Part shown: positions 27,461 through 48,014 of the stretch, one piece after another
Numbering within the stretch: position 1 is the stretch's first letter
Layout: every line of letters begins with the position of its first letter
Origin: Leptolyngbyaceae cyanobacterium JSC-12
GTDB taxonomy: Bacteria > Cyanobacteriota > Cyanobacteriia > Leptolyngbyales > Leptolyngbyaceae
Direction: 5' to 3'
DNA: 64,000 nt
NCBI GenBank assembly: GCA_000309945.1
Contig: CM001633.1
Location: forward strand, 766,723 to 830,722
Made by a program: the position numbers and the translations under genes
Notes under the pieces: model-generated
Told to the model about the DNA's origin: nothing
Database searches by the model: none
What the model saw: the letters and a program-made list of their open reading frames with translations, nothing else

Positions 27461-27826
27461 GTGAAGATAATAATTGAACTAGACGGAAAACCCGATTCCT
27501 TAAAAACACTCTTGTTACAGGTATCACAGTATGTATGTGACCCGGTTGTAAAACAATTAGGTATATCTCTTGACGTAAAAAATGCTGCGGTTATAGGGCG
27601 CGTGACTATCGAGCCAGAATCGCAACAGGATGCAGACTTGCAAGAAAAGGCAGTTCTATTTTTAAGGTCTGCTTATCTCTCTTACGAAACAGAGCACCCT
27701 GAAGTCTGGAAGCTCTGTGCGGCTGCTAACTTTGCAATGGAAACCGGGTTGGATATTAGATTCTGTAAACAGCTTATGGATGAACTTCTAGATAAAACCG
27801 TTTTTTACGCTAACTCAACGACTTGA
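27461..27826 (+). CDS. Hypothetical protein, lone plus-strand gene
   Basis: About 121 residues from a GTG at 27461 preceded by GAGG at 27451-27454; an ATG at 27449 is in frame but lacks a site. It starts VKIIIELDGKPD and contains no known motif. It is divergent from the helicase gene and converges with the VWA gene, overlapping its end by 22 bases. It is the only plus-strand gene between 8.6 and 42 kb, so it must have its own promoter inside the helicase start region. It could be a spurious frame, but length, codon pattern and tight fit between neighbours support it. Confidence 0.6.
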   Translation: MKIIIELDGKPDSLKTLLLQVSQYVCDPVVKQLGISLDVKNAAVIGRVTIEPESQQDADLQEKAVLFLRSAYLSYETEHPEVWKLCAAANFAMETGLDIRFCKQLMDELLDKTVFYANSTT

Positions 27827-29049
27827 CCAAAAGGTGGAATAAATTCATCGTCTGGTCGTAATAATCTATTACATGCCCACAAGACGGGAATTTTAGAGGA
27901 TTTTGGAAAAGGTCCGTACAAGTCCGTTGCAATAATCATACAAGCGGGTTTAACCTTAATCTTCTTGTTATGGTCTTGTAAGAACTCTTCAAAAAGGCAA
28001 AGAAAATCGGTTCCACCTCCTCCATGAAATTTAACGTCCTTTAAGGCTTTGGCAAAAGTGTTGGAACCAGCCTTAAATTGCATAATGTCTTGAATTTCAG
28101 TGTCGAAAGTTACTAACGTTATCGGGCATCTATAAATTCTTTGGATTTTAACAATGTTTGAGGCAAACATTGACAAAAGTCTATCTGACCAACAACTTCC
28201 AGAAACATCTACAGCGATGATAAGGTGATCGTATTGTTGCTGTTTTTGTTGAGCAGGTAGATAAACATCAACAATGCCTGCTGTATACAACCTATTTGGG
28301 CGTCCCCAAAATGTTTTATATTTCGGGGCTAATTTTTTCTGCAAGAAACCATTTAGATACTTCTGCCAGGGTGTGTGAACTTTGGGTAAGTCTCCACTTA
28401 GTAGTTTGAAGAATTCACCGAGCGCAGATCCATAGTTAGCCATTCGGCTAAGAATTTCTTGCATTTCTTCAACCTCTAGCTCCTCTGGTAGAGGAGGAAC
28501 TTCCTTACCTTCAGTAAACTCAACACTTAATTCTTCCGCTTCATGAGTGGTTATCAAATCTTCTAAGGGATTTTTGAGGTTAGAAGTCCTGTGCTTTTTC
28601 AAAAGTTCAAACAAATCTTCTGTCCGTAACCCAGCTTTATCTAAGGGAAGTTCTTGTTTGACTTCACCTGGTAATGAATCATAAGTTAACATTCCAAGAA
28701 TAGGTTGTAACCATTTTTGAGTTTTTATGGCTTCGTTGATAATGATGTCTGCGGCATAGTTCCACAGCTGTCTATCATTCACGCTGTTCACAAAATCTAC
28801 AGACCGTTGTGCATGTCTTAGCGCTATGTGGTTTAGTTCATGCACGTATATAAAACACTGCTGTGGCAATGAGTACTCAAAAAATCTGTTGTGGAAATAA
28901 ATGGTTCTCCCATCTGTGCAGGCAATATATTTAGGTTCGTCAACTATTTTGTTAGCTGCCCAAAGTGCCAGCTCGGTAATAGGGGAAAATTCGGAGATAC
29001 AACATTGTCGTACCTCCTCTAAACACTCAATTTTCTTCGCTAACTCCAT
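27805..29049 (-). CDS. VWA-domain metallopeptidase-like protein (DUF2201 type)
   Basis: The 414-residue protein has an N-terminal zincin-like helix HELNHIALRH (residues 70-79) and a C-terminal von Willebrand A fold with DVSGS (281-285, metal site) and GGGGTDF (343-349). A Glu-rich linker lies between. This is the partner of MoxR-type ATPases in many genomes. Its ATG overlaps the MoxR stop by one base. Inference: the pair assembles or dismantles a metal-dependent protein complex; in phages the target is unknown. Confidence 0.85.
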   Translation of the reverse strand: MELAKKIECLEEVRQCCISEFSPITELALWAANKIVDEPKYIACTDGRTIYFHNRFFEYSLPQQCFIYVHELNHIALRHAQRSVDFVNSVNDRQLWNYAADIIINEAIKTQKWLQPILGMLTYDSLPGEVKQELPLDKAGLRTEDLFELLKKHRTSNLKNPLEDLITTHEAEELSVEFTEGKEVPPLPEELEVEEMQEILSRMANYGSALGEFFKLLSGDLPKVHTPWQKYLNGFLQKKLAPKYKTFWGRPNRLYTAGIVDVYLPAQQKQQQYDHLIIAVDVSGSCWSDRLLSMFASNIVKIQRIYRCPITLVTFDTEIQDIMQFKAGSNTFAKALKDVKFHGGGGTDFLCLFEEFLQDHNKKIKVKPACMIIATDLYGPFPKSSKIPVLWACNRLLRPDDEFIPPFGQVVELA

Positions 29050-30203
29050 CAAGCACCCCCTAGTAAGTTACGTCGCATCGCGCTTGCTTTCGAAATGTAC
29101 GGAGCAAAGTGTTTCATATACTCCTGTTTGAACTTTCCAAATAGCAATTCTTGTTGCGCCTGTTCATCATTTACTAACTTTTTCATGAGTAGCTCATACC
29201 CTACGGTTTTTACTTCATTACGGTAAGGGATGCTTTCTACTGAACAAACTGCGTTAATAATTTTGGCTGCAGCTAAGATGCTTTCACTATTGTTTGCTCT
29301 GTAAACTACGTTGTAAAGTAACCCATACAGCGCATCTGTTGTGTCAGGTGCGATCGTTCTCAATTTTTCTGAGTCATTTGAAAACTCGAAGTAGTCTTCA
29401 ATCGGATTAAGGTTATTTAATCGTTTTCGAAACACTCGAAACGAATGTGCTGCCATAATACCTAACCACCCTGGAACAATATGCTCTAACACAGATGGAT
29501 CATCTCCATACTTGTAAAGTACGTTTGAAACTCGATTCCAAGACCGGGGGCTGGGTGTAATCAGATGCTCATCATTTCTAGAACCGCTGCCGCCATAGTC
29601 ACTATCCACATATTCTTCGTCTAGATAACGTGGTTTAGCTCGTAGAAATGCAATCACATCTGGGTGCCACCCCTTACGTTCTGCATAATTTAACGTGCTA
29701 ACAATGTCAGCCTTGACATTAAAATGACATAGACGGTCAGCCAGCGCTGTTCCCATTTCGTAAGCGATCGCTCCATCTTCTGGTCGATTACCTGCTCCAG
29801 CTAACCAGACGTTATCCGGCAGTTCGTAGTCTCGGAGTTTTCGGTCTTGTAAAATTTGGTATGCACATACCTGCACATCAGGAGTTGCAGCAGATAACTC
29901 ATCAAACAGCAATATGTGGATACGGTCATCTGGGATAGAAGCAATAAAATCGGGTAGGGTCCACAGCGTTACACCTTTTTCCCGATCAATCATTGGTAAC
30001 CCAGCTGCGTCACCTGCCTGTTTTTGTCCAAGGTATACAGCTTCAAATCCAAAACCTTGTGATTCAGCTAAGTCTCGGAACGATTCTGTTTTACCAATTC
30101 CAGGCTTACCGTGAAAGTAAACCGCATACCCAGCAGACATTACTTTAATTGCTGCTTGGATTGCTTGGTCAACACTTAACGATACGGTATTTACAATTGT
30201 CAT
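29049..30203 (-). CDS. MoxR-type AAA+ ATPase
   Basis: The 384-residue protein has Walker A YFHGKPGIGKTES near 29-41, Walker B HILLFDELSAA near 96-106 and a sensor-1 region VWLAGAGNRPEDGA near 136-149, as in the MoxR/RavA group. The C-terminal half is helical. It is directly coupled to the VWA metallopeptidase gene, the classic MoxR-VWA arrangement of chaperone ATPase and adaptor. It could remodel a phage or host complex, for example during replication or virion assembly, but no substrate can be read from the sequence. Confidence 0.88.
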   Translation of the reverse strand: MTIVNTVSLSVDQAIQAAIKVMSAGYAVYFHGKPGIGKTESFRDLAESQGFGFEAVYLGQKQAGDAAGLPMIDREKGVTLWTLPDFIASIPDDRIHILLFDELSAATPDVQVCAYQILQDRKLRDYELPDNVWLAGAGNRPEDGAIAYEMGTALADRLCHFNVKADIVSTLNYAERKGWHPDVIAFLRAKPRYLDEEYVDSDYGGSGSRNDEHLITPSPRSWNRVSNVLYKYGDDPSVLEHIVPGWLGIMAAHSFRVFRKRLNNLNPIEDYFEFSNDSEKLRTIAPDTTDALYGLLYNVVYRANNSESILAAAKIINAVCSVESIPYRNEVKTVGYELLMKKLVNDEQAQQELLFGKFKQEYMKHFAPYISKASAMRRNLLGGA

Positions 30204-30262: not shown

Positions 30263-31177
30263 TTATATGAAGGAGTTAATCAACCCACGCAATTCTTCGT
30301 AAGAAGACCCATATAGGATATGTGGATCGTTATATCCTTTAATAACTAGCTGGTGTTTTTGCAGTCGTTTGATAAATGGTACTTGGTCAGCGGTGCTAGA
30401 ACCTATTAGCAAGTCGCACCCGACCTGGCGAGTGGCACCTTCGTATCGAAATGCAGCGTTTACTGCATCCCCTAGCGGACTAAAATCTTGAATGCCACCA
30501 CTCCCGTTGTTTCCAACCATTGCTCTACCAGTATTGATACCAGAGCCGATCAATACTTTATGCTCCATTCCGTGGTGCAAAGCCAGGTCTTTTGTAATTG
30601 ATGCACAATCTAACATGCAGTGGATTACATTTAATAGATCAGGGACAGCTTTATTGTTGTGAACCCAAGTAGCCATCACGGAGTCTCCGATAGATTTGTG
30701 GGAAAAAGCTCCGTATCTTTCCGCTGTCAATCCGCAACGCATCGACCAGTCAGAAATAAAGCCTGCTAATTGATAGGCAGGTATCTTTTGAGATAACTCG
30801 CAATAACCACGAATGTCAACAACTAGGATCGTTGTTAATCTTTCTAAAATGTTAACCTCCGTTGGAGGTTCTTGTGAAACTGTTTGTGTTTCACTCACCT
30901 CTTCTAAACAAACCTGCAACCTTGAGGTACCTATTTCGATTGTATCCTGGTGACGTAAAGATACTTGTTTTGACACTCTCCGTCCATTTACGAATGTCCC
31001 ATTTCTGCTTCCTAAATCAATTAAATACAAATGGTCCGCTTGCCAAAACAGTTTAGCGTGTGTTCGAGACACTAATTGATCCGGTAGTTGAATGTCATTG
31101 GCAGTGGTTCTACCAATAGTCCATTCAGTTTTGTCATCAAGCATTTTACGGCTTGATTGTACAAGTAAATAAGCCAT
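30263..31177 (-). CDS. FHA-domain adenylate cyclase (class III)
   Basis: The 304-residue protein joins an FHA phosphothreonine-binding domain (about 1-95: IGRTTANDI, SRTHAKL, GSRNGTFVNG) to a class III cyclase domain (about 110-300). The cyclase keeps both metal Asp (VVDIRGY, Asp121; KSIGDSV, Asp165), the Lys161 linked to adenine choice, and the transition-state pair in GDAVNAAFR (Asn240, Arg244), so it looks active. Ser233 sits where ATP cyclases have Asp/Thr. FHA-cyclases are known in cyanobacterial chromosomes. It lies alone after a terminator, 60 bases from the MoxR gene. Inference: the phage raises cAMP in the host, or its product evades or triggers a defence pathway. Confidence 0.85.
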   Translation of the reverse strand: MAYLLVQSSRKMLDDKTEWTIGRTTANDIQLPDQLVSRTHAKLFWQADHLYLIDLGSRNGTFVNGRRVSKQVSLRHQDTIEIGTSRLQVCLEEVSETQTVSQEPPTEVNILERLTTILVVDIRGYCELSQKIPAYQLAGFISDWSMRCGLTAERYGAFSHKSIGDSVMATWVHNNKAVPDLLNVIHCMLDCASITKDLALHHGMEHKVLIGSGINTGRAMVGNNGSGGIQDFSPLGDAVNAAFRYEGATRQVGCDLLIGSSTADQVPFIKRLQKHQLVIKGYNDPHILYGSSYEELRGLINSFI

Positions 31178-31202
31178 TGTTTTTTATAAAATAAAGAACA
31201 TA

Positions 31203-31233
31203 AAAAACCACCTAACTACTTAAGGTGGTTTTT
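31203..31233. terminator. Bidirectional terminator upstream of the FHA-cyclase gene
   Basis: AAAAACCACCT and AGGTGGTTTTT form a perfect 11-bp stem with a 9-base loop, with A and T runs on either side. It follows the small gene ending at 31284 on the minus strand, so the cyclase gene likely has its own promoter in the 25 bases after it or depends on readthrough. Confidence 0.85.
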
Positions 31234-31283
31234 GAGTGAAAATCGATGATTCACATCACTGTTTAACGGTGTTTGTTTCTTTT

Positions 31284-31499: not shown

Positions 31500-31728
31500 A
31501 CCATTTTTTTAGCTGAAATTGAACATGAGCATAATTCGAGTTAGCCTCTGCTATTAACGTGGTTCTAGGAAATTTAATTACTTGAATGAGCAAATAAGAA
31601 AAAGCATAATCTTTATGAAACCATAAATCTTTGAGTGAATGACAAACTCCAAATACGGACTCTTCCAAAGTCTCTAAAGACAGCTTTGGTTCGGCAAAGA
31701 TTGGTTTTGACTGAGTTAACTCAAACAT
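31453..31728 (-). CDS. Small hypothetical protein
   Basis: The 91-residue protein overlaps the uracil-DNA glycosylase gene by 8 bases and the next small gene by 47 bases. It has two Cys and mixed helix-strand composition. The overlaps support co-translation; no function is visible. Confidence 0.5.
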   Translation of the reverse strand: MFELTQSKPIFAEPKLSLETLEESVFGVCHSLKDLWFHKDYAFSYLLIQVIKFPRTTLIAEANSNYAHVQFQLKKWCGKRAKPIQKLTNID

Positions 31729-32500
31729 CTAAAAAGTTTCTTAAAGGTTCTAAATCTTTTCTGAAGTGCCACACTGGGCTACCAATAATGGGGGGTTCGA
31801 TCACTCGAACTGCTTCTACTAAATAAGTGTCGTCACTATCCAAGGTTACTGATGTTTCAATCCTAAACTCAGAACGAGCAACTGGGGCAGGATTGAACGT
31901 AAAAATTAGAGGATGGTCACCTAATCTATAGTGGTTAGTGCGACGGCAATCATTAAGTGAATTAGGGAGGGATCTTTTTAGTTCTGGGAAACACGCAACT
32001 ATCCCCTTAAATGCTAGCGTCCCGGCAATTAAAATAGGAACTTCAGGTACAAACTGATCAAGAGTTGCCAACTCTTTTTTAAACCAGGCATTTGCACAAG
32101 CTTTCGCATGTGCCTCCTGCGGTTTTGTAGCCTTTGGGTCACATTTAATAATGTTGGTACACCATATGTCTGTGTAAGTGTCTAACCCAAACATTGTTTT
32201 TAAGGTGTGACGAAGCATAGACCCTGCGTTACGAAACCCTTCTGGAGTTTTGCGTCCAGTTTTTTTATTAATTTTGGAAGCACGTTTTCCATCGTTATCG
32301 AAAAACGGGTGATTTACTTGAATTTCGTAGGCACCAGGGTGGTCTGATACTACAATGAGCTTCACGTCAGTTAGCTCATCGGGTCCACCACCTGCAACTG
32401 CTTCTTTGCAGGATAGTGGACACTTTTTGCAACTTCGGTCAAAAGAAATGAGAGGGTGCTTGTCGGAACCCAGTTCATACGCAGTTGGTAAACTTATCAT
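31721..32500 (-). CDS. Uracil-DNA glycosylase, family 4/5-like
   Basis: The 259-residue protein has the Cys pattern of iron-sulfur uracil-DNA glycosylases: CKKCPLSC near 22-30 plus later CTNIIKC near 110-116. Family features include IVVSDHPGAYE near 50, where GExPG is typical (DHPG here), a helical TNIIKCDPKATKP segment with the KC-x-P signature, and a DHPLIFTFNPAP end where H-P is usual. It removes uracil from DNA. With a phage dCTP deaminase it may control dUTP-derived errors. An ATGA overlap joins it to the upstream small gene. Confidence 0.8.
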   Translation of the reverse strand: MISLPTAYELGSDKHPLISFDRSCKKCPLSCKEAVAGGGPDELTDVKLIVVSDHPGAYEIQVNHPFFDNDGKRASKINKKTGRKTPEGFRNAGSMLRHTLKTMFGLDTYTDIWCTNIIKCDPKATKPQEAHAKACANAWFKKELATLDQFVPEVPILIAGTLAFKGIVACFPELKRSLPNSLNDCRRTNHYRLGDHPLIFTFNPAPVARSEFRIETSVTLDSDDTYLVEAVRVIEPPIIGSPVWHFRKDLEPLRNFLDV

Positions 32501-32690: not shown

Positions 32691-33986
32691 CTATTCCGCC
32701 ACATCAAGTTGGTCACTAACTTTCTCAGCATGACGGACAACTACAAAGCTTTGTAATTGTAATGCGTCTGCTTCTTCAAAAGATTGCATAGCTAGTAACC
32801 AGCTCTTATTCCCTGAAGCACGTTGCGTTGACTTTTGGGTTAGTACCAAAGCACTTGACGCAAGGTTTGTAAATTTGAAATAACTTTGAAAACTGCGGAG
32901 GATGGAAACAAATGCCTGAGCATTGATTAAAACAGGTGCCCATTCTTCGCTAATAACGGATGGGTCTATGTGAACGAAAGCTCGTTCTTTACCTTTCACG
33001 TCTGAAGCTTGGAGAATTACCAAGTGTGGTTTTTGCTCAACAAGTACAAGTTCCTGTTGTAGCTCCGTTTCATCTGGCAACTGCAAAGTGACAGACGTTA
33101 ATAAGTCTTGCAGGGCAACCAGCCTATTACTTTCTTCTTTTACTCTGGGGTCGTTACCAAACAGTGCATAATTCATGAGTGTCCTATCTTCTGGGTCAAC
33201 ACACTTAAGGGACACTCTCCCACGATCGCCTTGAAAAGTTACCCAGTCTTCACCGTCTATTTGGTCTAAGTAAATCTCAACTGGAGCTTCCAAACTAAGC
33301 TTGATTAAACGCTTCATGTGCCGTCCTTCAACAGCAAACTTGTTTTCTACAAGCTCACTACCAGGGATAGTCACACCCAAATAACACATATAGGATGCTT
33401 TATGGTTAGCTACTCCTAAAATCTTATCCGGTTGGATGTCTAGAAAGACTGTGCGACCTACAATATCACTGCCGGGTTTTTCATTAAAGTCTGCGAACTT
33501 TTGGAGTAAACTTACCCAATTAGAAAAATCTTTTGCTAAAACTTTTCCTATTAAATTCGAAGCTTCGAAGACTTCTCCAAAGTCAGAAAGGGTTCCGCCA
33601 TATTGACGAACAGCTAACCTCCCCCTTTCTTTCTCTCCAGTTTGTGTAACAGCATAGTCTACTAAAAGGTTTAAAGTTCCTCTATTAACTCTTAGCGTAA
33701 GACTACCAACTCCAGCCTTGTGTAACTTACCAAGTTTAGACTTTAACTCTGTTTGGTCAATTAAATAAACAATTCCAGGCTCTCCCCCAGCATCACTATC
33801 TTGGTGTACATGATACCGCTGGACGATCGCTTTATTTGGTTCTTTAGTCGTAGCAACAGTTAAGTTGTGCTCTACCTGTTCGAGTAGAACACAACTGTGT
33901 GCAGACAAAGCTTCGGTTGTAGCAGCGCAGTAAACTTGCTCAAACAATAGCTTGAGCATAGTAGCTTTTTCAAAGCGTATAGTCAT
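32691..33986 (-). CDS. DNA polymerase sliding clamp (DnaN-like)
   Basis: The 431-residue protein has a repeated-domain architecture like the bacterial beta clamp: each third has paired strands, and the middle third includes KASYMCYLGVTIPG, FAVEGRHMKRLIKL and VEIYLDQIDGEDWVTFQGD, matching the domain-2 strand-helix order. It is about 60 residues longer than DnaN, mainly in the C-terminal third, and lacks the usual M-P-x-R C-terminus. It would tether the family A polymerase to DNA; the phage also encodes loader subunits. The assignment is by eye, so moderate. Confidence 0.7.
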   Translation of the reverse strand: MTIRFEKATMLKLLFEQVYCAATTEALSAHSCVLLEQVEHNLTVATTKEPNKAIVQRYHVHQDSDAGGEPGIVYLIDQTELKSKLGKLHKAGVGSLTLRVNRGTLNLLVDYAVTQTGEKERGRLAVRQYGGTLSDFGEVFEASNLIGKVLAKDFSNWVSLLQKFADFNEKPGSDIVGRTVFLDIQPDKILGVANHKASYMCYLGVTIPGSELVENKFAVEGRHMKRLIKLSLEAPVEIYLDQIDGEDWVTFQGDRGRVSLKCVDPEDRTLMNYALFGNDPRVKEESNRLVALQDLLTSVTLQLPDETELQQELVLVEQKPHLVILQASDVKGKERAFVHIDPSVISEEWAPVLINAQAFVSILRSFQSYFKFTNLASSALVLTQKSTQRASGNKSWLLAMQSFEEADALQLQSFVVVRHAEKVSDQLDVAE

Positions 33987-35409: not shown

Positions 35410-36629
35410 CTATTTAGACCACATTTTAGAAATAGCAGCTTCAGCCCGTCCACTCCATTCGTTGTTAAAAGTTTCTGCTTGGGCTTTTTCCATTAGACTC
35501 TTACAAATATTTCCCCAATGCTTTGCCTCTTCATTAGGTTCATAATACGGTTTGAAAATACCGTTTTTAATAATGCATTTATCTTCAACAAGAACTACAT
35601 CACCGGGAACACAGCAAACTAGTTCGTCATGGACCAGCATACAAATTTTTGCGTCTGTCCCTAAGAACTCATCATATACGTAATCCATTGAGAGCTTAAT
35701 TTGTGTAGAACCATATCCTTGAATTTGAAAGTTGACTCCAGACCTAGCAGGGCTGGCACCCGCTTGTTTGCTGTTATCTTCTGCCACCCATCTCAACCTT
35801 CCGTCACGATTTCTACTCCATCCACGAACGGTGCAAAGATGTCCAATTTCCTTCGCCCACTTGTGAAATCCTGGATACGTTTGCTCGTGACGTTTGATCC
35901 AATCAGCGCAAAGTTCTTCTTTGACGTGGTAAAGGTCGGACATTGCCTTTGATGTCTGACCGTATATGATCACTTAGCCCCTAATTACTTAGGGAGTAGA
36001 CTATACCTTAGTTGTTGTTTTGTGAAAAACAGAACAACAACTCCTGCCGTATTACCCATTTTTGAGTCTCAGAGTCACCTTATCCACTGGACTTAGGCTA
36101 TCTTCAGTCGTTACACCATTCGATCATATTTCTAAGATCCCTGGCTCGGTATTGCCGCTCGTATGAGTACGGTTTCACCGAATTGAGCAGGTTTTACTTC
36201 GGCTATCACTTAACCGAAATTTACTCGCTTTGCATAGTCGCGAGGTTTTCCCTTCTGAGTAATTAAACTCTCATTCTTAGCAATATCTACCCACTCGTGC
36301 CGTTGCTTTCCTACAAATAAATGTGGAAAGCAACAACCCATGCAAGTTAGAGTATGCAAGTCTGCGTCCGGGTTTGGATAAAATACTTGCTTGCCGTCTT
36401 TGACTACCTGTTTTCCATCCAGGTCTAACAAAGGTAAGGTTTCTTCTGACAAAAACGCTTTCAGCATTGTCTGGTCCTGAGAAAGGACGGCAGCAATATA
36501 CAGTTCTTGTGAACTGAAGTCCACTGAAAGTAGAACGTATCCAGGTGGAGCGACAAACCCTCCTCTTGCTGTTAGTGAAAGCCTGACAGTTGTACCACCT
36601 GCTTTTATTGCTTCTGTGGTTTGATTCAA
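35410..36629 (-). CDS. polA: Family A DNA polymerase, C-terminal part (two exons interrupted by a group I intron)
   Basis: Exons are 36629-36213 and 35970-35410, giving 325 residues. Exon 1 carries motif A (LLSVDFSSQEL) and the start of motif B (RDYAKRVNFG). Exon 2 continues it (IIYGQTSKAM) and has motif C (LVHDELVC) with the catalytic Asp. It is the palm/finger half of a DNA polymerase I-like enzyme; the exonuclease and early palm are on a separate gene upstream. Translation likely begins at TTG 36629, with GGAGG five bases ahead. Without splicing, exon 1 ends at a TAA two codon positions into the intron, which would truncate the protein in the O-helix. Confidence 0.9.
35971..36212 (-). other. 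Group I self-splicing intron (242 nt) in the polymerase gene
   Basis: The 5' exon ends UUUCGGU and the intron guide GCCGAAG (36203-36197) pairs with all seven bases, with the U-G wobble at the splice site that marks group I P1. A likely P7 pairs GACU (36109-36106) with AGUC (36002-35999) in AAGGUAUAGUC. GUUGUUGUU/AACAACAAC forms a P8-type hairpin just before it, and CCCUAA-GUAA-UUAGGG forms P9 with a GNRA loop. The intron ends in G (35971). Splicing joins Asn-Phe-Gly to Ile-Ile-Tyr-Gly. No endonuclease is encoded. Confidence 0.93.
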
Positions 36630-36644
36630 TGCATCCTCCAGTGA

Positions 36645-36857
36645 TTAACGTTGTGTTAACGCACGACCAAGCCTGGTTAATCGATAAGGCTTCTCAGTTA
36701 TTAAACGTTTTGAAATTAACAACTTCAATAACTGATGAATCTGCTTACGATTAAACCTGGTTTCTAATGCCTTATAAGGCAAAACTAGCTTGTTGTCGGT
36801 ACCAAATGCACGAAGAACAACTAGCTCTTCTTCACTCACTGGTGTAAACCCTAGCAT
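36645..36857 (-). CDS. Small winged-helix-like protein inside the split polymerase
   Basis: The 70-residue protein looks like a winged helix-turn-helix: RKQIHQLLKLLISKRLITEK followed by PYRLTRLGRALTQR. It lies between the two polymerase genes and is in the same frame as the C-terminal gene, separated only by one TAA and 15 bases, so readthrough would fuse them. It overlaps the 51-residue gene by 26 bases. Function is unknown; it could bind DNA at the fork or be an insertion remnant. Confidence 0.65.
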   Translation of the reverse strand: MLGFTPVSEEELVVLRAFGTDNKLVLPYKALETRFNRKQIHQLLKLLISKRLITEKPYRLTRLGRALTQR

Positions 36858-36987
36858 TTTCTTTTTCCTTTATTCGAAGGTCTACCTTATCGATAGTCGC
36901 TAGTAGCGCAGCTTTAACTGCGTACCATTGTTCTAAGGTCAAGTCACCAAGCTCATCTAAGTTAATAAAAGTCTCTACGCTTTGCAT
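36832..36987 (-). CDS. Small hypothetical protein inside the split polymerase
   Basis: A 51-residue frame from ATG 36987 (MQSVETFINLDELGDLTLEQ...) ends at TGA 36832. It overlaps the end of the N-terminal polymerase gene by 13 bases and the start of the winged-helix gene by 26 bases, forming a chain of coupled frames. It is helical and acidic, with no known family. Short length makes it less certain. Confidence 0.5.
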   Translation of the reverse strand: MQSVETFINLDELGDLTLEQWYAVKAALLATIDKVDLRIKEKENARVYTSE

Positions 36988-38390
36988 GGCGGCACCCAAT
37001 CAGGAATAAGAGATTCGTAGTTTGCGGAGCTAGGGAAAAGTTTTTCCCGCTCTCGTTCAATCTCGACATACGTTCTAGCAGATACGTTCTGCAGATTGGG
37101 TCCACTAGACGAACTACGTCCAGTGGCAGCACCGAGAACGTCTAATCGGGAGTGGATACATCCAGTGAGAGGATTGATGTGACTTCTCAAATCCATCGAG
37201 TAAAGCTTGCGTAACTGCTTATACTCAATGACCAACTTCGCAAGTTCAGAAGCTTGTACTGCCTCGCATTCGGAATAATCAAGGATTTGTCGGTACAATT
37301 CCTCTTCATCCTGGTCAACAAACTCGGTTGCTCCCTCTTTTGCTATCTCTTCTGTTAAGTCAATAAATCTCTCTAAGACTTGCGTTTGAGAGTTATCTAG
37401 CTCTAAGCCCACTTGTTTATTAATTAACTCTTTTAGAATTTGAGGGTTGTTAAGAGCTTTGTACGATCGCTGAGTAGGTAACTTCGTGTCTCCCCAAAAA
37501 GAAGGCTCAGTATCTAACCCAAACTTTACGCACAACTTACTAGCAACTGTAGTTAAAGCTCCTTCTCCGGTGCTTGGGTCCTGGATAGATTTTTGAATTT
37601 GGTCAAAGATTTCACGCGAAGCTGGCAACCCGTTGTATTCCATCTCAGCAGCTACTACTGCCATCTTCATTTCTAATGGCAAGATAGCACTCATGCCTAA
37701 TCCATGTGAACCTTCAACCCCATCAGCAAGAATTGGACTGTAAGGTAACGGGTCACAGATGACCTTCAAAAACAAGTCATGTAAATCAAACAGATACTTA
37801 ACGTCGTTAGCTGCGTACTTCAACTTATCAAAAACCCAGTATTTATAACCCTCTGACTCTCGATTAGTAAAATCTGGACGTGCATACCAGTCTGTCGTCT
37901 GTTCTGCACCTTTTCCTACCAGGTTAATACCTAAGTAATCTCGGCATAGGTCTGCTAACGTATGCCCACACAATTTACCGTATTTACTACCTGTGGCATT
38001 TGTTATTAACTTCGCCATCAGTCTAGTACACCAGAGGTTTGAAGGTACTATGCCGTAGTGTCGCTTAAGGAACTTTCCGTCGAACTGAGCGTTATGAAAG
38101 ATCAGTTTTTTACGGGACACGAGTAAATCATGCATTAGCTGCGGATTATACCCGTTACGTTCTAGAAGAAGAATGTCAAACACGATAGGCACATCGTCTC
38201 TGCCCTGTAAAGTTAGCACACTTATCCTTCCTGTATGAGGGTCTAATGCACTCGCTCCTTTTAGGTGACGATATTGAGGTAAAGTATACGTCTCTGAATC
38301 CCCTGCTAATTCCTCAAAGGATTCTAGATGGTCAACGAAAAGACAGTACTCATCACGTTCTGTAACATAAACGAACTCATCTTTACTCAT
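36975..38390 (-). CDS. polA: Family A DNA polymerase, N-terminal part with 3'-5' exonuclease
   Basis: The ATG at 38390 (MSKDEFVYV) is preferred over 38420, as it overlaps the upstream stop by only 8 bases; the product is 471 residues. A DnaQ-like exonuclease comes first, with DSET (Exo I, near 36), FHNAQFDGKFL (Exo II) and KYAANDVKYLFD (Exo III), so proofreading looks intact. The polymerase thumb and early palm follow, ending with the GAATGRSSSSGPNLQN motif just before motif A. After it come about 30 extra residues and a stop. Together with the 325-residue C-terminal part the total (796) is near a normal polymerase. Confidence 0.9.
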   Translation of the reverse strand: MSKDEFVYVTERDEYCLFVDHLESFEELAGDSETYTLPQYRHLKGASALDPHTGRISVLTLQGRDDVPIVFDILLLERNGYNPQLMHDLLVSRKKLIFHNAQFDGKFLKRHYGIVPSNLWCTRLMAKLITNATGSKYGKLCGHTLADLCRDYLGINLVGKGAEQTTDWYARPDFTNRESEGYKYWVFDKLKYAANDVKYLFDLHDLFLKVICDPLPYSPILADGVEGSHGLGMSAILPLEMKMAVVAAEMEYNGLPASREIFDQIQKSIQDPSTGEGALTTVASKLCVKFGLDTEPSFWGDTKLPTQRSYKALNNPQILKELINKQVGLELDNSQTQVLERFIDLTEEIAKEGATEFVDQDEEELYRQILDYSECEAVQASELAKLVIEYKQLRKLYSMDLRSHINPLTGCIHSRLDVLGAATGRSSSSGPNLQNVSARTYVEIEREREKLFPSSANYESLIPDWVPPCKA

Positions 38391-38697
38391 ATGAGGTGAT
38401 AAACGAATTAGGTGCAACAACTTCTGGTATAGAGCTAATAAGACTTGTACTATCTGCCCTTACTTTGTCTCGTACAGTTTGGAAATCATCTGTTTCTGAG
38501 GCTTGTGCGGCTTGCTGAACCTTCTCATCACGTTCTATTTGCAAGTCAGCAAGTCTAGCTTCAAACCATATCTGGGCAAATACACAACCTTGAAGATTTT
38601 TTATTAACTCCTCTTGCTGACTACGTAACCTAACTTCAATAGCTTTTAACTGATTAATCTGCTCAGTGTATTCTTCAATTAGTAAAGTCTCTCTCAC
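38383..38697 (-). CDS. Small coiled-coil protein
   Basis: The 104-residue protein is almost all helix, with heptad-like Leu/Ile/Gln patterns (EEYTEQINQLKAIEVRLRSQQEEL). A Cys lies near 41. It overlaps the polymerase gene start and probably is its operon leader. It could be a structural adaptor in the replisome; no family is recognised. Confidence 0.6.
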   Translation of the reverse strand: MRETLLIEEYTEQINQLKAIEVRLRSQQEELIKNLQGCVFAQIWFEARLADLQIERDEKVQQAAQASETDDFQTVRDKVRADSTSLISSIPEVVAPNSFITSYE

Positions 38698-38772: not shown

Positions 38773-40845
38773 CTATATAGGAAGCGTGATTAGGTGGTCG
38801 TATAATTTGTTGAAAATCTCTGGGTTGGCTTTTAGGAAAGCAGTAACGCTATCGATGCCTTGTCCAATTTTGGACTCTACTCCATATTGAGTTGCAACTT
38901 CGTCGCTGAATTTATACCAGGACCCAGATCTGTTGACCAGTCCGGCATAGACTAGTTCTCCAGCTAACACGTCTTCAGGAACAATGCCATCTGCTTTATA
39001 GATGTTTACGTCAACACTTTCCCGTACAGAACCATTGGTGTGATTTTTTTGGATTTTTACTTGAGTAATTTGACCTTTAATAAATCCATCTTTAGTTTTG
39101 ATAGCTTCCTTCTTCATAAGTTGAAGCCGCAAAGATGGCATGTGCCTTGCTCCATGCCCACCTGGAGTTCCAGTGGAATTGTGCACATTGATTCCGTACA
39201 AGTTGCCAGCAAAATAATTGTGAGTATCCGCCACTTCCAGATCGTACATTGTTTGCTCACCAATATTGGCTTTTGAAACCCCTGTAATAGTCAGGTGGCG
39301 AGGTACAACTTGTTGGTCTATCAACCAAGTTTTAGGAGTGTTTAAGCGCTCAACTTCTAAATGCAAAGCATCCTGAGCAAACGTTGGTACCCAATCCTTA
39401 ATAAGTTCTGATAACTTCTTAAAGGCATTTTGAGTGAGAAGAATCCCTTCTTGGCTAGACACGATGAGAATTTCAGATGCCTCGCACTCTATGAAATCTA
39501 CCCACATTTTGTGGGCACGTTCTGTATCTGCCTTAGCTCGATACTGCTTAAATAGATGGTCGAGCCTGATGAAAAAGGTATTTTGGTCTGTCGATAGTTT
39601 TGGCTTTACTACGTTTGCTACAAACCAGGCAGTTGCCATCTGTGGGGTTAAACCCAACTGTCGAGGTATAGTTCTAACTAGTTTATGAGATGGATCAGCA
39701 ATGTAATATTGCTTTTTGAATATTGCCATCTCCTCGTCTTGCCGAGAACGTCGCATAACTCGGTTGTTATGCTCATTTGTTCTCAGCTCTAGTAGTTCTT
39801 CTAGAAGTGAATTAATCCACTCATTAAACCTTGGGTCAAGATTACTTGCGGTGTAGCAAAGTCTTGCTGTGCCAAGTTTAGTTTGTTCCAAATAGAACAA
39901 GCCTGAGAGCAATAAACCGTGTAACAATCCATACCCATCTGGGCTTGCAGTAATAGAAGTATACGCAGATGTGACAACATCATCCGGTTTTAACTGAGCA
40001 GATGGTAGATCACCCCGATTAATGGTAGGGACTATATGATCGTGCGTAGTTACTAAACGTCCAGGCATTTCTAAAAACTGAACAGCAATCCAATCTTTAG
40101 ACTTACCGTTGATAAACCAGTTGGTGACTGGTTTTGAAACAATTTTACCCGTATCTATGTCTTTAGACAGTACATTTACTGAAAGTTTTTCTCTAACTAC
40201 GGTTTCTATCGATTTTCGGGTTCCATCACTTAACGAGATTTTCATACTTGCTGGAAGACATCCACCCCCTGGACCACCAATACTAGACCGGATTTGGTTT
40301 GTAAAAACTAGAATACCCTGGTTGTCGTCTACTACTGGCACGAGCAAACTTTTAGCGTGGTTAATAAATCGGGAGAGGTAAGCAACACCTCTGGACTCGT
40401 CAATGCTTTTAGCCAAAATGTCAGATGGAACTAATGCTTCTATTGAGTCTAGAAAAGCAATTCTATGCTCACCTGATTTGAAAAATTCGATTAGAATTTC
40501 TATCGCTTCTTCGGCTGTAGGTGGCTTAGCATAGAAAAAATCGGATAGTTGAAATCTTTCCCTAGTGTTATTTGAGAAAGCTTTCCTCTCCATATCTAAG
40601 TACATTCCGATCCAACCTTGCTTTTGGGCGGCACTTAGAATTGCAAAACAAGTACTGCTTTTGCCTGCGTCAGGTCCACCATAAATCTCTGTGATTCTAC
40701 CGATAGGTAACCCACCACCCAATGTTCTATCCAGTGAAATAATATTTGTACGTAAAAATTTGAGTTTAGGGTAGTCTCCAAACTTTACGTAACTCTGTTT
40801 AGCAAATAAATTTTGAACTGTACTAATTTCAGATAGCTCTACCAT
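38773..40845 (-). CDS. recA: RecA recombinase with intein
   Basis: The 690-residue precursor gives a 329-residue RecA after loss of an intein (196-556). The recombinase has Walker A YGGPDAGKSST near 55-65, Walker B HRIAFLDSIEAL near 127-138, the L1 loop region NQIRSSIGGPGGG next to the splice point, and a GGHGARHMPSLRLQL segment after it. It would form filaments on single-stranded DNA for recombination-based replication and repair. The gene has its own terminator downstream. A 33-base gap separates it from the next gene upstream. Confidence 0.95.
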   Translation of the reverse strand: MVELSEISTVQNLFAKQSYVKFGDYPKLKFLRTNIISLDRTLGGGLPIGRITEIYGGPDAGKSSTCFAILSAAQKQGWIGMYLDMERKAFSNNTRERFQLSDFFYAKPPTAEEAIEILIEFFKSGEHRIAFLDSIEALVPSDILAKSIDESRGVAYLSRFINHAKSLLVPVVDDNQGILVFTNQIRSSIGGPGGGCLPASMKISLSDGTRKSIETVVREKLSVNVLSKDIDTGKIVSKPVTNWFINGKSKDWIAVQFLEMPGRLVTTHDHIVPTINRGDLPSAQLKPDDVVTSAYTSITASPDGYGLLHGLLLSGLFYLEQTKLGTARLCYTASNLDPRFNEWINSLLEELLELRTNEHNNRVMRRSRQDEEMAIFKKQYYIADPSHKLVRTIPRQLGLTPQMATAWFVANVVKPKLSTDQNTFFIRLDHLFKQYRAKADTERAHKMWVDFIECEASEILIVSSQEGILLTQNAFKKLSELIKDWVPTFAQDALHLEVERLNTPKTWLIDQQVVPRHLTITGVSKANIGEQTMYDLEVADTHNYFAGNLYGINVHNSTGTPGGHGARHMPSLRLQLMKKEAIKTKDGFIKGQITQVKIQKNHTNGSVRESVDVNIYKADGIVPEDVLAGELVYAGLVNRSGSWYKFSDEVATQYGVESKIGQGIDSVTAFLKANPEIFNKLYDHLITLPI
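39178..40260 (-). other. Intein of RecA (361 residues)
   Basis: It starts at Cys196 after GGPGGG and ends YGINVHN556, followed by Ser557 of the extein. Block A is CLPASMKISL and block B is VTTHDHIVP (T-x-x-H). A middle region of about 230 residues corresponds to the endonuclease; the best LAGLIDADG-like helix (LLHGLLLSGLFYL) has no acid, so homing is probably lost. Excision joins GGPGGG to STGTPGGHG in the DNA-binding loop region. Confidence 0.93.
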
Positions 40846-45008: not shown

Positions 45009-47120
45009 ATGCCTATTAATTTACCTGACCTTCGGCTTGGTCTGAAACAAGTTAACACAGGACTTGCTCCAAACGATGGTCAGGGGGAAGACTTAAGAAG
45101 TGCTTTTGATAAGGTTAACTTCAACACAAACATCTTAGCCAACATGGTTGGCGAAGCACTTACTAACACTAAAGATTATTGGGTATCTACTAGTGGAGTT
45201 GATACCAACAATGGATTAACTGAAGGGACCGCTTTTCGAACAATTAGTAAAGCCGTATCCACCATTTATAAAGACCTGAAACTTAGTGGGCAGCAGGCAA
45301 CTATCAATTTAATGCCTGGTGACTACGTTGAATCTATTCTTATTAATGGTTTACCTGATGGGGCTTATGGAGTAAATGCTCCTATTAGAATTCGTAAAGC
45401 AGCTGGACAAGCCGGAACTGTTTATTGGTCTTTCAATCCTGCTAATCACAATTACGCTTTAAGAATCAGTGGCGGAGCTAGGGTGCTACTAGATGGTATT
45501 CATTTTCGTACCTCTGTCCCAGGTTCTCTCAATGCAGGTAAACATTTAATAGATGTACTTTCTAGTTCTAGCCTTTGGCTTGGTTCCTGTGAATTTGCGT
45601 TGATGGGAGCAACTACCCTTAATGATGCCGTACACATTTATGTGTACAACGACTCGGAGCTTCAGCTACAAAAGGCGTACACAATCAAGGGAGGGGGCAC
45701 AACTCATATTTATGTTGGAGATGGCTCAAAAGTTTGGAGTCCTCCATCAACAGGTGACCCTAAAATTTGTACGTTGGATGGCACAGTCGAATTTCGTGAA
45801 TTCATTCAGGTTCGAGGACGCTCTGATGTCCAGTTGTCTGCAGACAATATTCAGTATCAGGGCAACTTACAAGGAAGACAGTTCAACACAGACATTTTTT
45901 CTACCGTTCAATTAGGTGTAAACCTTTTACCCAACAGTGCTCAGGTAGGTACCTATGAACAACAGTCGTTAAACGGTTCGCTCACCTTTCTGTCTCCCAC
46001 CACGATGGCAGCAAGTCTGTCAGTACTGGGGACATCTAGCTTCCAGGGAGCAATGACTGTTAGTGGTCAAGCTACTTTTTCAAACACAACCAATTTTACA
46101 AGTGCAGTCTCACTTACGGGTATTACCACTGCTTCTGCCCCTCCCAATGACGACAACAGTGGACGAGTAGCTACTACTGGGTTTGTTCAACAAGTTGTCC
46201 AGGATAAAATTTTGGCAGCAGTAGGTATTGCAACCCCCGCGTTATTCGGTTTAGTCAAAATTGATGGTGCTGACGCTGACCCGATCGTTTATCGGAAAGT
46301 CACAGTTGATACGCTACTTGGCTTAAAAGCAAATTTAGCCAGCCCGACTTTTACTGGAGAACCAAAAGCACCCACTCCTTCCAGTGCAGACAATTCAACA
46401 AATTTGGCAACAACAGCTTGGGTGCGAAATTACACTGCTGGTATCTCTTCAATGCCAACAGGTGCAATTTTACCATTTGCTGGTCCAACTACTGCAATTC
46501 CCTCAGGATGGCTCTTGTGTGATGGAGCATATGTAAGCCGCACTACCTACGCCACATTGTTTACTGCAATAGGTACACGCTGGGGTTCTACGTCTGAAAG
46601 TAATTTCAGATTACCCTTATTAACTGATAGAGGGTTGATGGGTGCTGCAGCCGACGAAAACGTTGGACAGCTAAGTGGTTCTGCAAGCGTAACACTGACT
46701 ACACCTAATCTTCCAGCACATACACATAACGTCATCGATCCAGGACACGTTCACTCGACAACAGACCCAGGACATGCTCACGGCATTTCTGACCCAGGAC
46801 ACGTTCACGGTGTATTTGACCCTGGACATTCGCACGTTGTCACCACGCCTATTGTCACGACTGGGTTAAACCCTCCCAACTTATTGTGGGAAGCTTGGAG
46901 CAACCCAGGTGCTGGAGCGTATGGCAGTGCCACAGCCGTAACTGCACTAACAGGTATTTATATAGATAGAGCGTGGACTGGCATAACTATTAATGGCGCT
47001 TTAAGCAACTTGTCTATTAACGCTTCTGGTACTGGAATTACCTTACAAAACACAGGCAGCGGTCAATCGTTCAGTGTTATTAATCCTCACGGAAAAGTCC
47101 ACTGGATAATAAAAGCGTAG
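45009..47120 (+). CDS. Tail fibre with phage tail collar domain and HxH repeats
   Basis: The 703-residue protein has a short N-terminal virion-attachment-like segment (NDGQGEDLRSAFDKVNFNT, about 22-40), a pectin-lyase-like beta-helix start (about 58-250, with VSTSGVDTNNG and INLMPGDYV), linkers with CHASE-like TTGFVQQVVQD repeats (about 395, 480) and a C-terminal collar domain (about 490-570, PSGWLLCDGAYVSRTTY and NFRLPLLTDRG). After it are four DPGHxH repeats and a Ser/Gly-rich tip. This layout is that of receptor-binding tail fibres; the beta-helix may bind or cleave surface polysaccharide. Confidence 0.88.
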   Translation: MPINLPDLRLGLKQVNTGLAPNDGQGEDLRSAFDKVNFNTNILANMVGEALTNTKDYWVSTSGVDTNNGLTEGTAFRTISKAVSTIYKDLKLSGQQATINLMPGDYVESILINGLPDGAYGVNAPIRIRKAAGQAGTVYWSFNPANHNYALRISGGARVLLDGIHFRTSVPGSLNAGKHLIDVLSSSSLWLGSCEFALMGATTLNDAVHIYVYNDSELQLQKAYTIKGGGTTHIYVGDGSKVWSPPSTGDPKICTLDGTVEFREFIQVRGRSDVQLSADNIQYQGNLQGRQFNTDIFSTVQLGVNLLPNSAQVGTYEQQSLNGSLTFLSPTTMAASLSVLGTSSFQGAMTVSGQATFSNTTNFTSAVSLTGITTASAPPNDDNSGRVATTGFVQQVVQDKILAAVGIATPALFGLVKIDGADADPIVYRKVTVDTLLGLKANLASPTFTGEPKAPTPSSADNSTNLATTAWVRNYTAGISSMPTGAILPFAGPTTAIPSGWLLCDGAYVSRTTYATLFTAIGTRWGSTSESNFRLPLLTDRGLMGAAADENVGQLSGSASVTLTTPNLPAHTHNVIDPGHVHSTTDPGHAHGISDPGHVHGVFDPGHSHVVTTPIVTTGLNPPNLLWEAWSNPGAGAYGSATAVTALTGIYIDRAWTGITINGALSNLSINASGTGITLQNTGSGQSFSVINPHGKVHWIIKA
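46737..46844 (+). repeat. Four 27-base tandem repeats coding DPGHxH
   Basis: Four in-frame units of nine codons begin with Asp-Pro-Gly-His-x-His (x = Val, Ala, Val, Ser). In the T4 long tail fibre tip, stacked HxH motifs bind iron to make a rigid needle; the same is likely here. Confidence 0.85.
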
Positions 47121-47146: not shown

Positions 47147-47267
47147 GTTTGTGGATAACTAACTTTTACCGTTAATGGATAACTATTGGTAAACGAGGTT
47201 ATATTCTCTGGTTAAAGTAGCTAGAACAACCGAAGATACTAAGTTAAGAGTGTAGAGTTGAGGACTT
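47147..47267. other. Phage-host junction region with a direct repeat
   Basis: The change from phage-type to chromosome-type sequence falls in these 121 bases. The 10-mer TGGATAACTA occurs at 47152-47161 and 47176-47185 (24-base period). It may be a regulator site for the metal transporter or a remnant of an attachment site. The matching left end is outside the window. Confidence 0.4.
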
Positions 47268-48014
47268 ATGCTAGAGGTTCAGCAACTAGCTGTCAACTAC
47301 CGGGGAATTCGTGGGCTGGATTCGGTCAGCTTTCGGGTGCAGCCTGGGCAACTGGTGGGAGTGATTGGACCGAATGGGGCAGGCAAAAGCACAATGTTTA
47401 AAGCGATGTTGGGCTTAATTCCTAGAGATCGGGGAGTGGTGAAGTATTGTACCTGTCCACTGCATCAGCAGTTAGAACGAGTCGCCTATGTGCCGCAGCG
47501 ATCGCAGATTGATTGGGATTACCCGATCACCGTTTGGAATGTAGTGATGATGGCACGCACCCGACAACTTGGGTGGTTTCGTAGCCCTGGTCGTAGTGCT
47601 AAAGAGTTGGTAAAAACAGCGCTGCAACAGGTAGAGATGTACGAGCTACGCGATCGCCGCATCAGTGATTTATCTGGTGGGCAACAGCAGCGCGTTTTTT
47701 TAGCACGAGCACTGGCTCAACAAGCTGAACTGTTTTTCTTTGATGAGCCGTTTACAGGTGTAGATACGAAAACAGCAGCGATTATGCTGCAGATATTTGA
47801 TGAATTACGCCAGCAAGGAAAAATTTTACTCATCAGCAGCCATGATTGGGGACAGGCTTTGAGCCAGCTTGATCGCTTACTGTTGATTAATCAACGTTTA
47901 ATTGCTGATGGTGCTCCATACCAGGTAATGACTCCAGAGAACTTACAGCAGGCTTATGGCACAACATTGCAAACACACCATTGGCATGGGCTAGACTCTA
48001 ATTTATTTTGCTAG
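47268..48014 (+). CDS. mntA: Manganese/zinc ABC transporter ATPase (MntA-like)
   Basis: The 248-residue protein has Walker A GPNGAGKST near 35-43, the signature LSGGQQQRV near 134-142, Walker B ELFFFDEPF and switch His in SSHDW. Its QRSQIDWDYPITV Q-loop region is the form seen in Mn/Zn importers. It powers metal uptake with the permease encoded 94 bases downstream. In cyanobacteria a substrate-binding gene (mntC) usually precedes it; here the phage tail fibre gene does. Mn versus Zn cannot be set by eye. Confidence 0.85.
   Translation: MLEVQQLAVNYRGIRGLDSVSFRVQPGQLVGVIGPNGAGKSTMFKAMLGLIPRDRGVVKYCTCPLHQQLERVAYVPQRSQIDWDYPITVWNVVMMARTRQLGWFRSPGRSAKELVKTALQQVEMYELRDRRISDLSGGQQQRVFLARALAQQAELFFFDEPFTGVDTKTAAIMLQIFDELRQQGKILLISSHDWGQALSQLDRLLLINQRLIADGAPYQVMTPENLQQAYGTTLQTHHWHGLDSNLFC

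Follow-up and report, generated by a model that had tools for sequence, protein, structure and literature searches.

An integrated phage in the genome of Leptolyngbyaceae cyanobacterium JSC-12 carries a gene whose product joins an FHA domain to a class III cyclase, a layout that appears to be new on a phage and of which the collections searched gave, within their limits, no other phage example. The reading we favor, with a probability of about 0.6, is that this protein is an active phage adenylate cyclase that feeds cAMP into the network of the host under the control of host kinases. The window is the whole stretch of DNA that was analysed, 64,000 nucleotides long, corresponding to bases 766723–830722 of a single-contig 5.53-Mb genome. 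Its features are as follows, in window coordinates and with the strand where one applies:

1–47265: right-hand part of the 206.8-kb prophage, delimited by end repeats and an empty site
8891–43716: region of phage replication and nucleotide genes in which the FHA-cyclase gene lies
27805–29052, minus: DUF2201/VWA gene, after the ATPase
29049–30203, minus: MoxR-type AAA+ ATPase, next gene downstream of the cyclase (phrog_1297, 1.1e-62)
30263–31177, minus: FHA-cyclase gene (open reading frame, Pfam, alignment, AlphaFold model)
30311–30838, minus: class III cyclase domain, residues ~114–289, with D121, K161, D165, S233, N240 and R244
30929–31123, minus: FHA domain, residues 19–83, with R23, S37 and N59 (Pfam and alignment)
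31202–31234: terminator-like hairpin, picked by eye, that has T-runs on both strands and lies immediately ahead of the cyclase start
31721–32500, minus: uracil-DNA-glycosylase-superfamily protein, upstream of the cyclase (PF03167, 7e-11)
45009–47120, plus: tail fibre or collar protein, with no further phage gene between it and attR (PF07484, 7.1e-16)
47266–47279: attR, 14-bp core, with its second copy (attL) at genome 607161
47268–48014, plus: host ABC-transporter ATPase, with its start codon inside attR

The carrier is, on the evidence of its ends and its genes, an integrated temperate tailed phage of a cyanobacterium. Specifically, the prophage occupies 206.8 kb (genome 607161–813987) between copies of a 14-bp repeat at genome 607161 and 813988, which lie 206,827 bases apart, and in a genome of the same genus (G012) the flanks are adjacent without the insert, at nucleotide identities of 76% on the left and 79–80% on the right. 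Genes for a major head protein, portal, terminase, tail sheath and tail collar lie inside it, and its left end, outside the window, holds an integrase-like gene of 379 amino acids (genome 607368–608507; PHROG 1.8e-12) that scores 19.4 bits against Pfam Phage_integrase, below the cut-off of 27.1. The mean G+C of open reading frames is 0.416 inside the prophage versus 0.478 in its flanks, where the outside left neighbor is a ZnuA-family gene and the right neighbor an ABC ATPase gene. The preliminary description had called the cyclase phage-encoded while leaving room for a chromosomal piece within a chimeric assembly. The first of these stands, as the location of the gene inside the integrated prophage is plain from the end repeats, the empty site, the structural genes and the integrase-like gene. 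A chimeric assembly is ruled out because a genome of the same genus has the empty site; in addition, host genes run on continuously on both sides and there is no N among the 230,722 bases checked. A chromosomal gene lying beside the prophage is likewise ruled out, since the FHA-cyclase gene is 16 kb inside attR.

The carrier itself, an integrated cyanophage of 207 kb whose empty site is clean, looks unusual. Its major head protein has no match in the other 385 of the 386 cyanobacterial genomes searched, only in its own. An IMG/VR contig of 195,039 bases encodes three prophage proteins at 100% identity, and by the shared coordinates it would begin some 11.6 kb in from the left end of the prophage and hence lack the integrase-like gene. 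The integration has also split a ZnuA-family/ABC-ATPase gene pair (genome 606012–607174; window 47266–48014): the att core overlaps the start codon of the ATPase, and an inverted-repeat-like intergenic stretch, identical in the empty-site genome, remains with znuA at a distance of some 207 kb. The prophage may alter how the lysogen controls zinc uptake. Elsewhere in the prophage are giant open frames, one of 5284 codons (genome 755464–771318), whose end part matches peptidase M23 and whose tail end is the 1478-residue reading frame at the start of the window (1–4596), and another of 3311 codons (genome 708725–718660).

The cyclase gene is embedded among genes for ribonucleotide reductase, dCTP deaminase, an exonuclease, primase, helicases, a clamp loader, PolA, UvsX/RecA and PhoH. 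The MoxR-type ATPase that follows it has matches in 758 phage records, and together with the VWA gene forms a pair of a kind that is widespread among phages. The hairpin ahead of the cyclase, which was chosen by eye, gives two motif matches that are a single hairpin read on two strands; a 61-nucleotide fold around it has −13.4 kcal/mol and a z of −3.85, with 1 of 200 shuffles equally good, and the terminator scan missed it because its loop is 9 and the scan allows 3–8. If this hairpin terminates, the cyclase would begin its own transcription unit or be reached by read-through. The scans themselves returned 10 sigma-70 sites versus 10.8 in shuffles and 9 terminators versus 5.0, and inspection by eye of the sequence ahead of the cyclase ATG gave no clear ribosome-binding site.

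Several neighbors deserve mention in their own right. The family A DNA polymerase is spread over three frames (36975–38420, 36210–36629 and 35410–35973; window 35410–38420, minus). A group I intron match at 35978–36222, at 48.1 bits just below the gathering score of 50, lies close to the break of the polymerase frame within the conserved NFG/IIYG stretch; for the other gap, 36630–36974, presumably also at a conserved motif, Rfam gave no convincing match. The ribonucleotide reductase gene (8891–13462, minus) contains an intein-splicing match above the cut-off with a LAGLIDADG homing endonuclease, and the UvsX/RecA gene (38773–40845, minus) a weaker one that is below it. A 431-residue protein (32691–33986, minus) matches nothing in Pfam or PHROG at E 0.01 or in the phage records at 1e-5; going by where it lies, it may be a diverged sliding clamp.

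The cyclase gene is a 304-codon open reading frame with an ATG start and no internal stop. Pfam finds the FHA domain at E 3.3e-23 (residues 19–83) and Guanylate_cyc at 3.7e-5 (residues 116–248), the latter weak but above its cut-off (23.8 versus 21.9 bits). An AlphaFold2 model built from 29 homologues shows both folds with a mean pLDDT of 83.4 and a pTM of 0.69, its confidence being good save in the linker (95–109) and one loop (224–231). These homologues came from 79 usable loci on genome contigs, the best 80 having been kept and one (L255) lacking a usable reading frame. Among PDB structures, the cyclase part best matches CyaC (1wc1, E 1.4e-11), with CyaB and Cya2 among the other top cyclases, and the FHA part best matches 6i2r_B (E 4.6e-9).

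It is informative to examine the active site against 136 cyanobacterial FHA-cyclase sequences, some of them near-identical to one another. The columns of the metal aspartates and the columns and roles of the FHA residues were assigned by spacing, as were those of the lysine, the second substrate residue and the Asn-Arg pair, and all are to be taken as our assumption; position 233, seven before N240, is presumed from this spacing to be the second substrate residue, and it aligns with the Thr of CyaB (3r5g). In this alignment the phage protein has both metal aspartates (D121, D165), the transition-state residues N240 and R244, the adenine-type lysine K161 as first substrate residue, and an intact FHA signature of R23, S37 and N59, the putative phosphothreonine-binding residues. 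The first description, of an FHA domain fused to a class III cyclase with its metal and transition-state residues, is therefore borne out by the Pfam matches and the alignment. Across the 81 family columns that are near-invariant (at least 97% in the 136 cellular sequences), the phage protein keeps 60, D237 among them, and loses 21, namely T233S and 20 more; those close to active-site residues are V159S, D160H, Y162S, A166S, T233S, A234P and T238A. Taken together, the protein is probably active as an enzyme, to judge by its residues, and ATP is its likely, but not certain, substrate.

The doubt about the substrate concerns residue 233, which is serine in the phage protein and threonine in 136 of 136 cyanobacterial relatives. 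An active cyclase with altered base preference, in which T233S and the changes at 159–166 shift the product to cGMP or another cyclic nucleotide and give a signal unlike that of the host, is an unlikely alternative in our view. It draws on the substitution itself, on the nearby changes at V159, D160, Y162, A166 and A234, and on what an excerpt of PMC4215837 says of class III cyclases: the lysine and a second residue are the substrate residues and an Asn-Arg pair serves the transition state, adenylate cyclases combining Lys with Asp or sometimes Thr, and guanylate cyclases combining Glu with varied residues that include Ser. By the same excerpt, however, guanylate cyclases have Glu at the position where the phage protein keeps the adenine-type K161, and among the best 80 viral cyclases from IMG/VR site 233 is Ser in 19, always together with Lys, and Thr in 61. 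Serine is therefore a recurrent natural state at this site. The agreement of these viral rows at 160–165 is by selection, because the rows were found by the pattern VDKYIGD.

The gene is, judging from alignment and tree, related to the FHA-cyclase family of cyanobacteria but evolving fast; it is homologous to that family over nearly its full length, with the FHA domain first and the cyclase after it. The protein is 33–40% identical to all 136 cellular members, whereas the other 135 are 45–95% identical to the copy of the host itself (genome 3065090–3065998), which is 95% identical to one from another Leptolyngbyaceae genome (L209). A family match is present in all 42 genomes searched in the host's family, its own counted, where the best cellular match in each genome is 36–40% identical to the phage protein (in one genome, G022, this match is split in two pieces on different contigs); in a sample of the phylum, 59 of 386 genomes have a match at E 1e-40 or better, and two of them (G125, G280) have two strong matches apiece.

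A tree of 78 catalytic domains, comprising the phage protein, 57 cellular FHA-cyclases (56 fetched loci and the host's own copy), 12 viral cyclases out of the 80 and, from the host genome, 8 out of its 15 other cyclase matches, places the phage protein and all 57 cellular FHA-cyclases on one branch with 100/100 support. Within it the phage protein is nested in a starred group of 13 (97/93), at the end of a branch of 3.96 changes per column, which makes it very diverged. Grouping it with the viral cyclases, as descent from marine phage cyclases would have it, is rejected at a p-AU of 0.002, a test that presumes a group named beforehand and involves long branches. The phylogeny against host cyclases that had been proposed in the preliminary description agrees with its view of a host-type signalling gene. 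A position as sister to all cellular FHA-cyclases is not rejected (p-AU 0.27). The GC3 of the gene is 0.357, close to the mean of the phage reading frames (0.351, sd 0.056, n=142), as compared with 0.452 in the flanking host reading frames (sd 0.048, n=17) and 0.495 in the host FHA-cyclase; a phage-like GC3 of this kind would point to a long residence in the phage.

The points counted against an active cyclase are the strong divergence of the protein, the 21 of 81 near-invariant columns lost, the changed second substrate site, a Pfam cyclase score barely above its cut-off and the lack of a clear ribosome-binding site. Furthermore, with no second phage copy found in the collections searched, neither dN/dS nor conservation among phages backs function. 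The very long branch, the lost columns, the failure to find a second phage copy and the want of an obvious ribosome-binding site before the ATG are also what one would expect of a passenger, that is, a captured host gene whose function has decayed in a possibly inert prophage. We consider this quite unlikely, as the 304-codon frame is intact, the catalytic and FHA residues are kept and the GC3 is phage-like, and the structural and replication genes of the prophage are long and open.

Class III cyclases function as dimers, and a phage subunit might pair with the FHA-cyclase of the host and alter or poison that enzyme. The two proteins share family and layout and are 36% identical over 308 columns, which is compatible with such mixed pairing; however, this degree of identity makes dimerisation doubtful, and the phage protein retains a full catalytic set that a pure poison would not need. 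An inhibitor of this type is in our judgment very unlikely. Less credible by far is a Pycsar-type cyclase or, as had been suggested at the outset, an agent against nucleotide-based immunity, a role that finds no specific support, since the 49.8-bit match to the PADLOC PycC model, the best-scoring of the Pycsar models, is bettered by four ordinary cyanobacterial FHA-cyclases on the same model (62–78 bits), so that PycC membership is rejected. A defence search of nine further proteins from this part of the prophage gave no Pycsar effector hit and a single weak match, to HEC-01A (E 0.006).

Returning to an active adenylate cyclase under host-kinase control, we consider where its signal would come from and go to. 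The host genome has 15 cNMP-binding (PF00027) and 30 protein-kinase (PF00069) matches, and none of the 15 and none of the 30 lie inside the prophage; as judged by these two Pfam families, the only ones searched, the signal and response partners would therefore be those of the host. We propose that an FHA-adenylate-cyclase gene was captured from a cyanobacterium long ago by this 206.8-kb temperate tailed phage, that its FHA domain would bind phosphothreonine produced by host Ser/Thr kinases, and that two cyclase domains would pair and convert ATP to cAMP, in the manner presumed for its host relatives. Receptors of the host would then sense the phage-made cAMP, and expression from the phage would in this way shift host cAMP signalling during lysogeny or infection. 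We take Cya1 of Synechocystis (slr1991) to be a member of the FHA-cyclase family. Portions of two papers indicate what such a shift could reach, in that most cAMP of Synechocystis comes from Cya1, which responds to inorganic carbon (PMC10117731), and a cya1 mutant is immobile on agar (PMC4284465), placing cAMP in both the motility and the inorganic-carbon signalling of cyanobacteria.

A regulatory role for the phage FHA-cyclase is thus plausible. A phage-owned cyclase of host type, combined with a domain that reads phosphopeptides, offers a handle on the rewiring of second messengers through host kinases, and suggests that a virus may be able to use the cell's own chemical signalling language. 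It is tempting to go further and imagine that a jumbo temperate cyanophage has made the host FHA-cyclase into its own switch, issuing a kinase-read cyclic-nucleotide signal, possibly of changed base preference, that would direct the physiology of the host or tip the decision between lysis and lysogeny; we hold this stronger version to be rather unlikely.

The preliminary description knew of no phage case of this architecture. This holds for the FHA-cyclase layout in the collections searched, but not for phage class III cyclases as such, which are already known and are common in IMG/VR. In the phage records such an annotation is found for Pelagibacter phage HTVC008M and for Methylophilales phages, and pelagiphages are described, in an excerpt of PMC9599517, as carrying an adenylate cyclase in curli-secretion (T8SS) clusters. 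At least 593 of at least 600 IMG/VR stretches, counted as stretches and not as distinct contigs, encode a relative of the query. The best 80 of these (L093–L172) were read: all 80 have a cyclase, and none has an FHA domain by a profile made from the cyanobacterial FHA-cyclase family at E up to 1, a profile that found 59 of 59 controls (20 of them training rows), with 15 of the 80 viral loci running off the 5′ end of their contigs. CHASE2 was present in all five of the IMG/VR cyclase reading frames scanned with Pfam; membership of the phage protein in such a CHASE2-cyclase group is ruled out, as it has FHA, not CHASE2, and belongs to another clade.

Other collections were consistent with this picture, bearing in mind that the homologue scans depend on short conserved peptides or tblastn similarity and may omit the window's own records. 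No second phage with an FHA-cyclase gene was found among the matches listed from IMG/VR or the phage records, and when the FHA half alone was run against IMG/VR, the only full-length match was this prophage, with one further match of 27 residues. Among plasmids, 229 records match, yet in none does a single place reach 80% coverage of the query; in Acinetobacter phage MD-2021a the cyclase and FHA matches are in separate records and not in one protein. In the BFVD there are viral cyclases as well as FHA proteins, including one of a Nodularia phage, but nothing that is clearly an FHA-cyclase; a giant-virus cyclase of 483 residues aligns over 338 columns with an rmsd of 20.6. The matches listed from open-licence papers contain neither an FHA-cyclase on a phage nor an account of this prophage.

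It is worth setting the phage and its gene beside the systems they most resemble. In the phage collection, the nearest named relatives of the carrier are the Ma-LMM01-type Microcystis phages and Microcoleus phage My-WqHQDG, at 30–32% for the major head protein and ~36% for the terminase; these have genomes of 162–183 kb and no cyclase match among the phage records searched, whereas the prophage is 206.8 kb long, with an integrase-like gene and end repeats. PhiMa05 and the PhiMa05-like prophages, likened here by description, also combine a jumbo cyanophage with integrated relatives; in the excerpted account these prophages are reported without a recognisable integrase, unlike the one here, and the main text of that paper nowhere uses the word cyclase (PMC13157829). 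The cyclases of pelagiphages and Methylophilales phages (HTVC008M, Melnitz) and of IMG/VR are, like the query, phage-coded and of class III, but they form a separate clade. The cyanobacterial FHA-adenylate-cyclase family resembles the phage protein in domain order, catalytic residues and clade; the phage protein differs from it in its phage location, its very long branch, the replacement of T233 by S and its length, 304 residues as against 325–397 in the 57 cellular reading frames.
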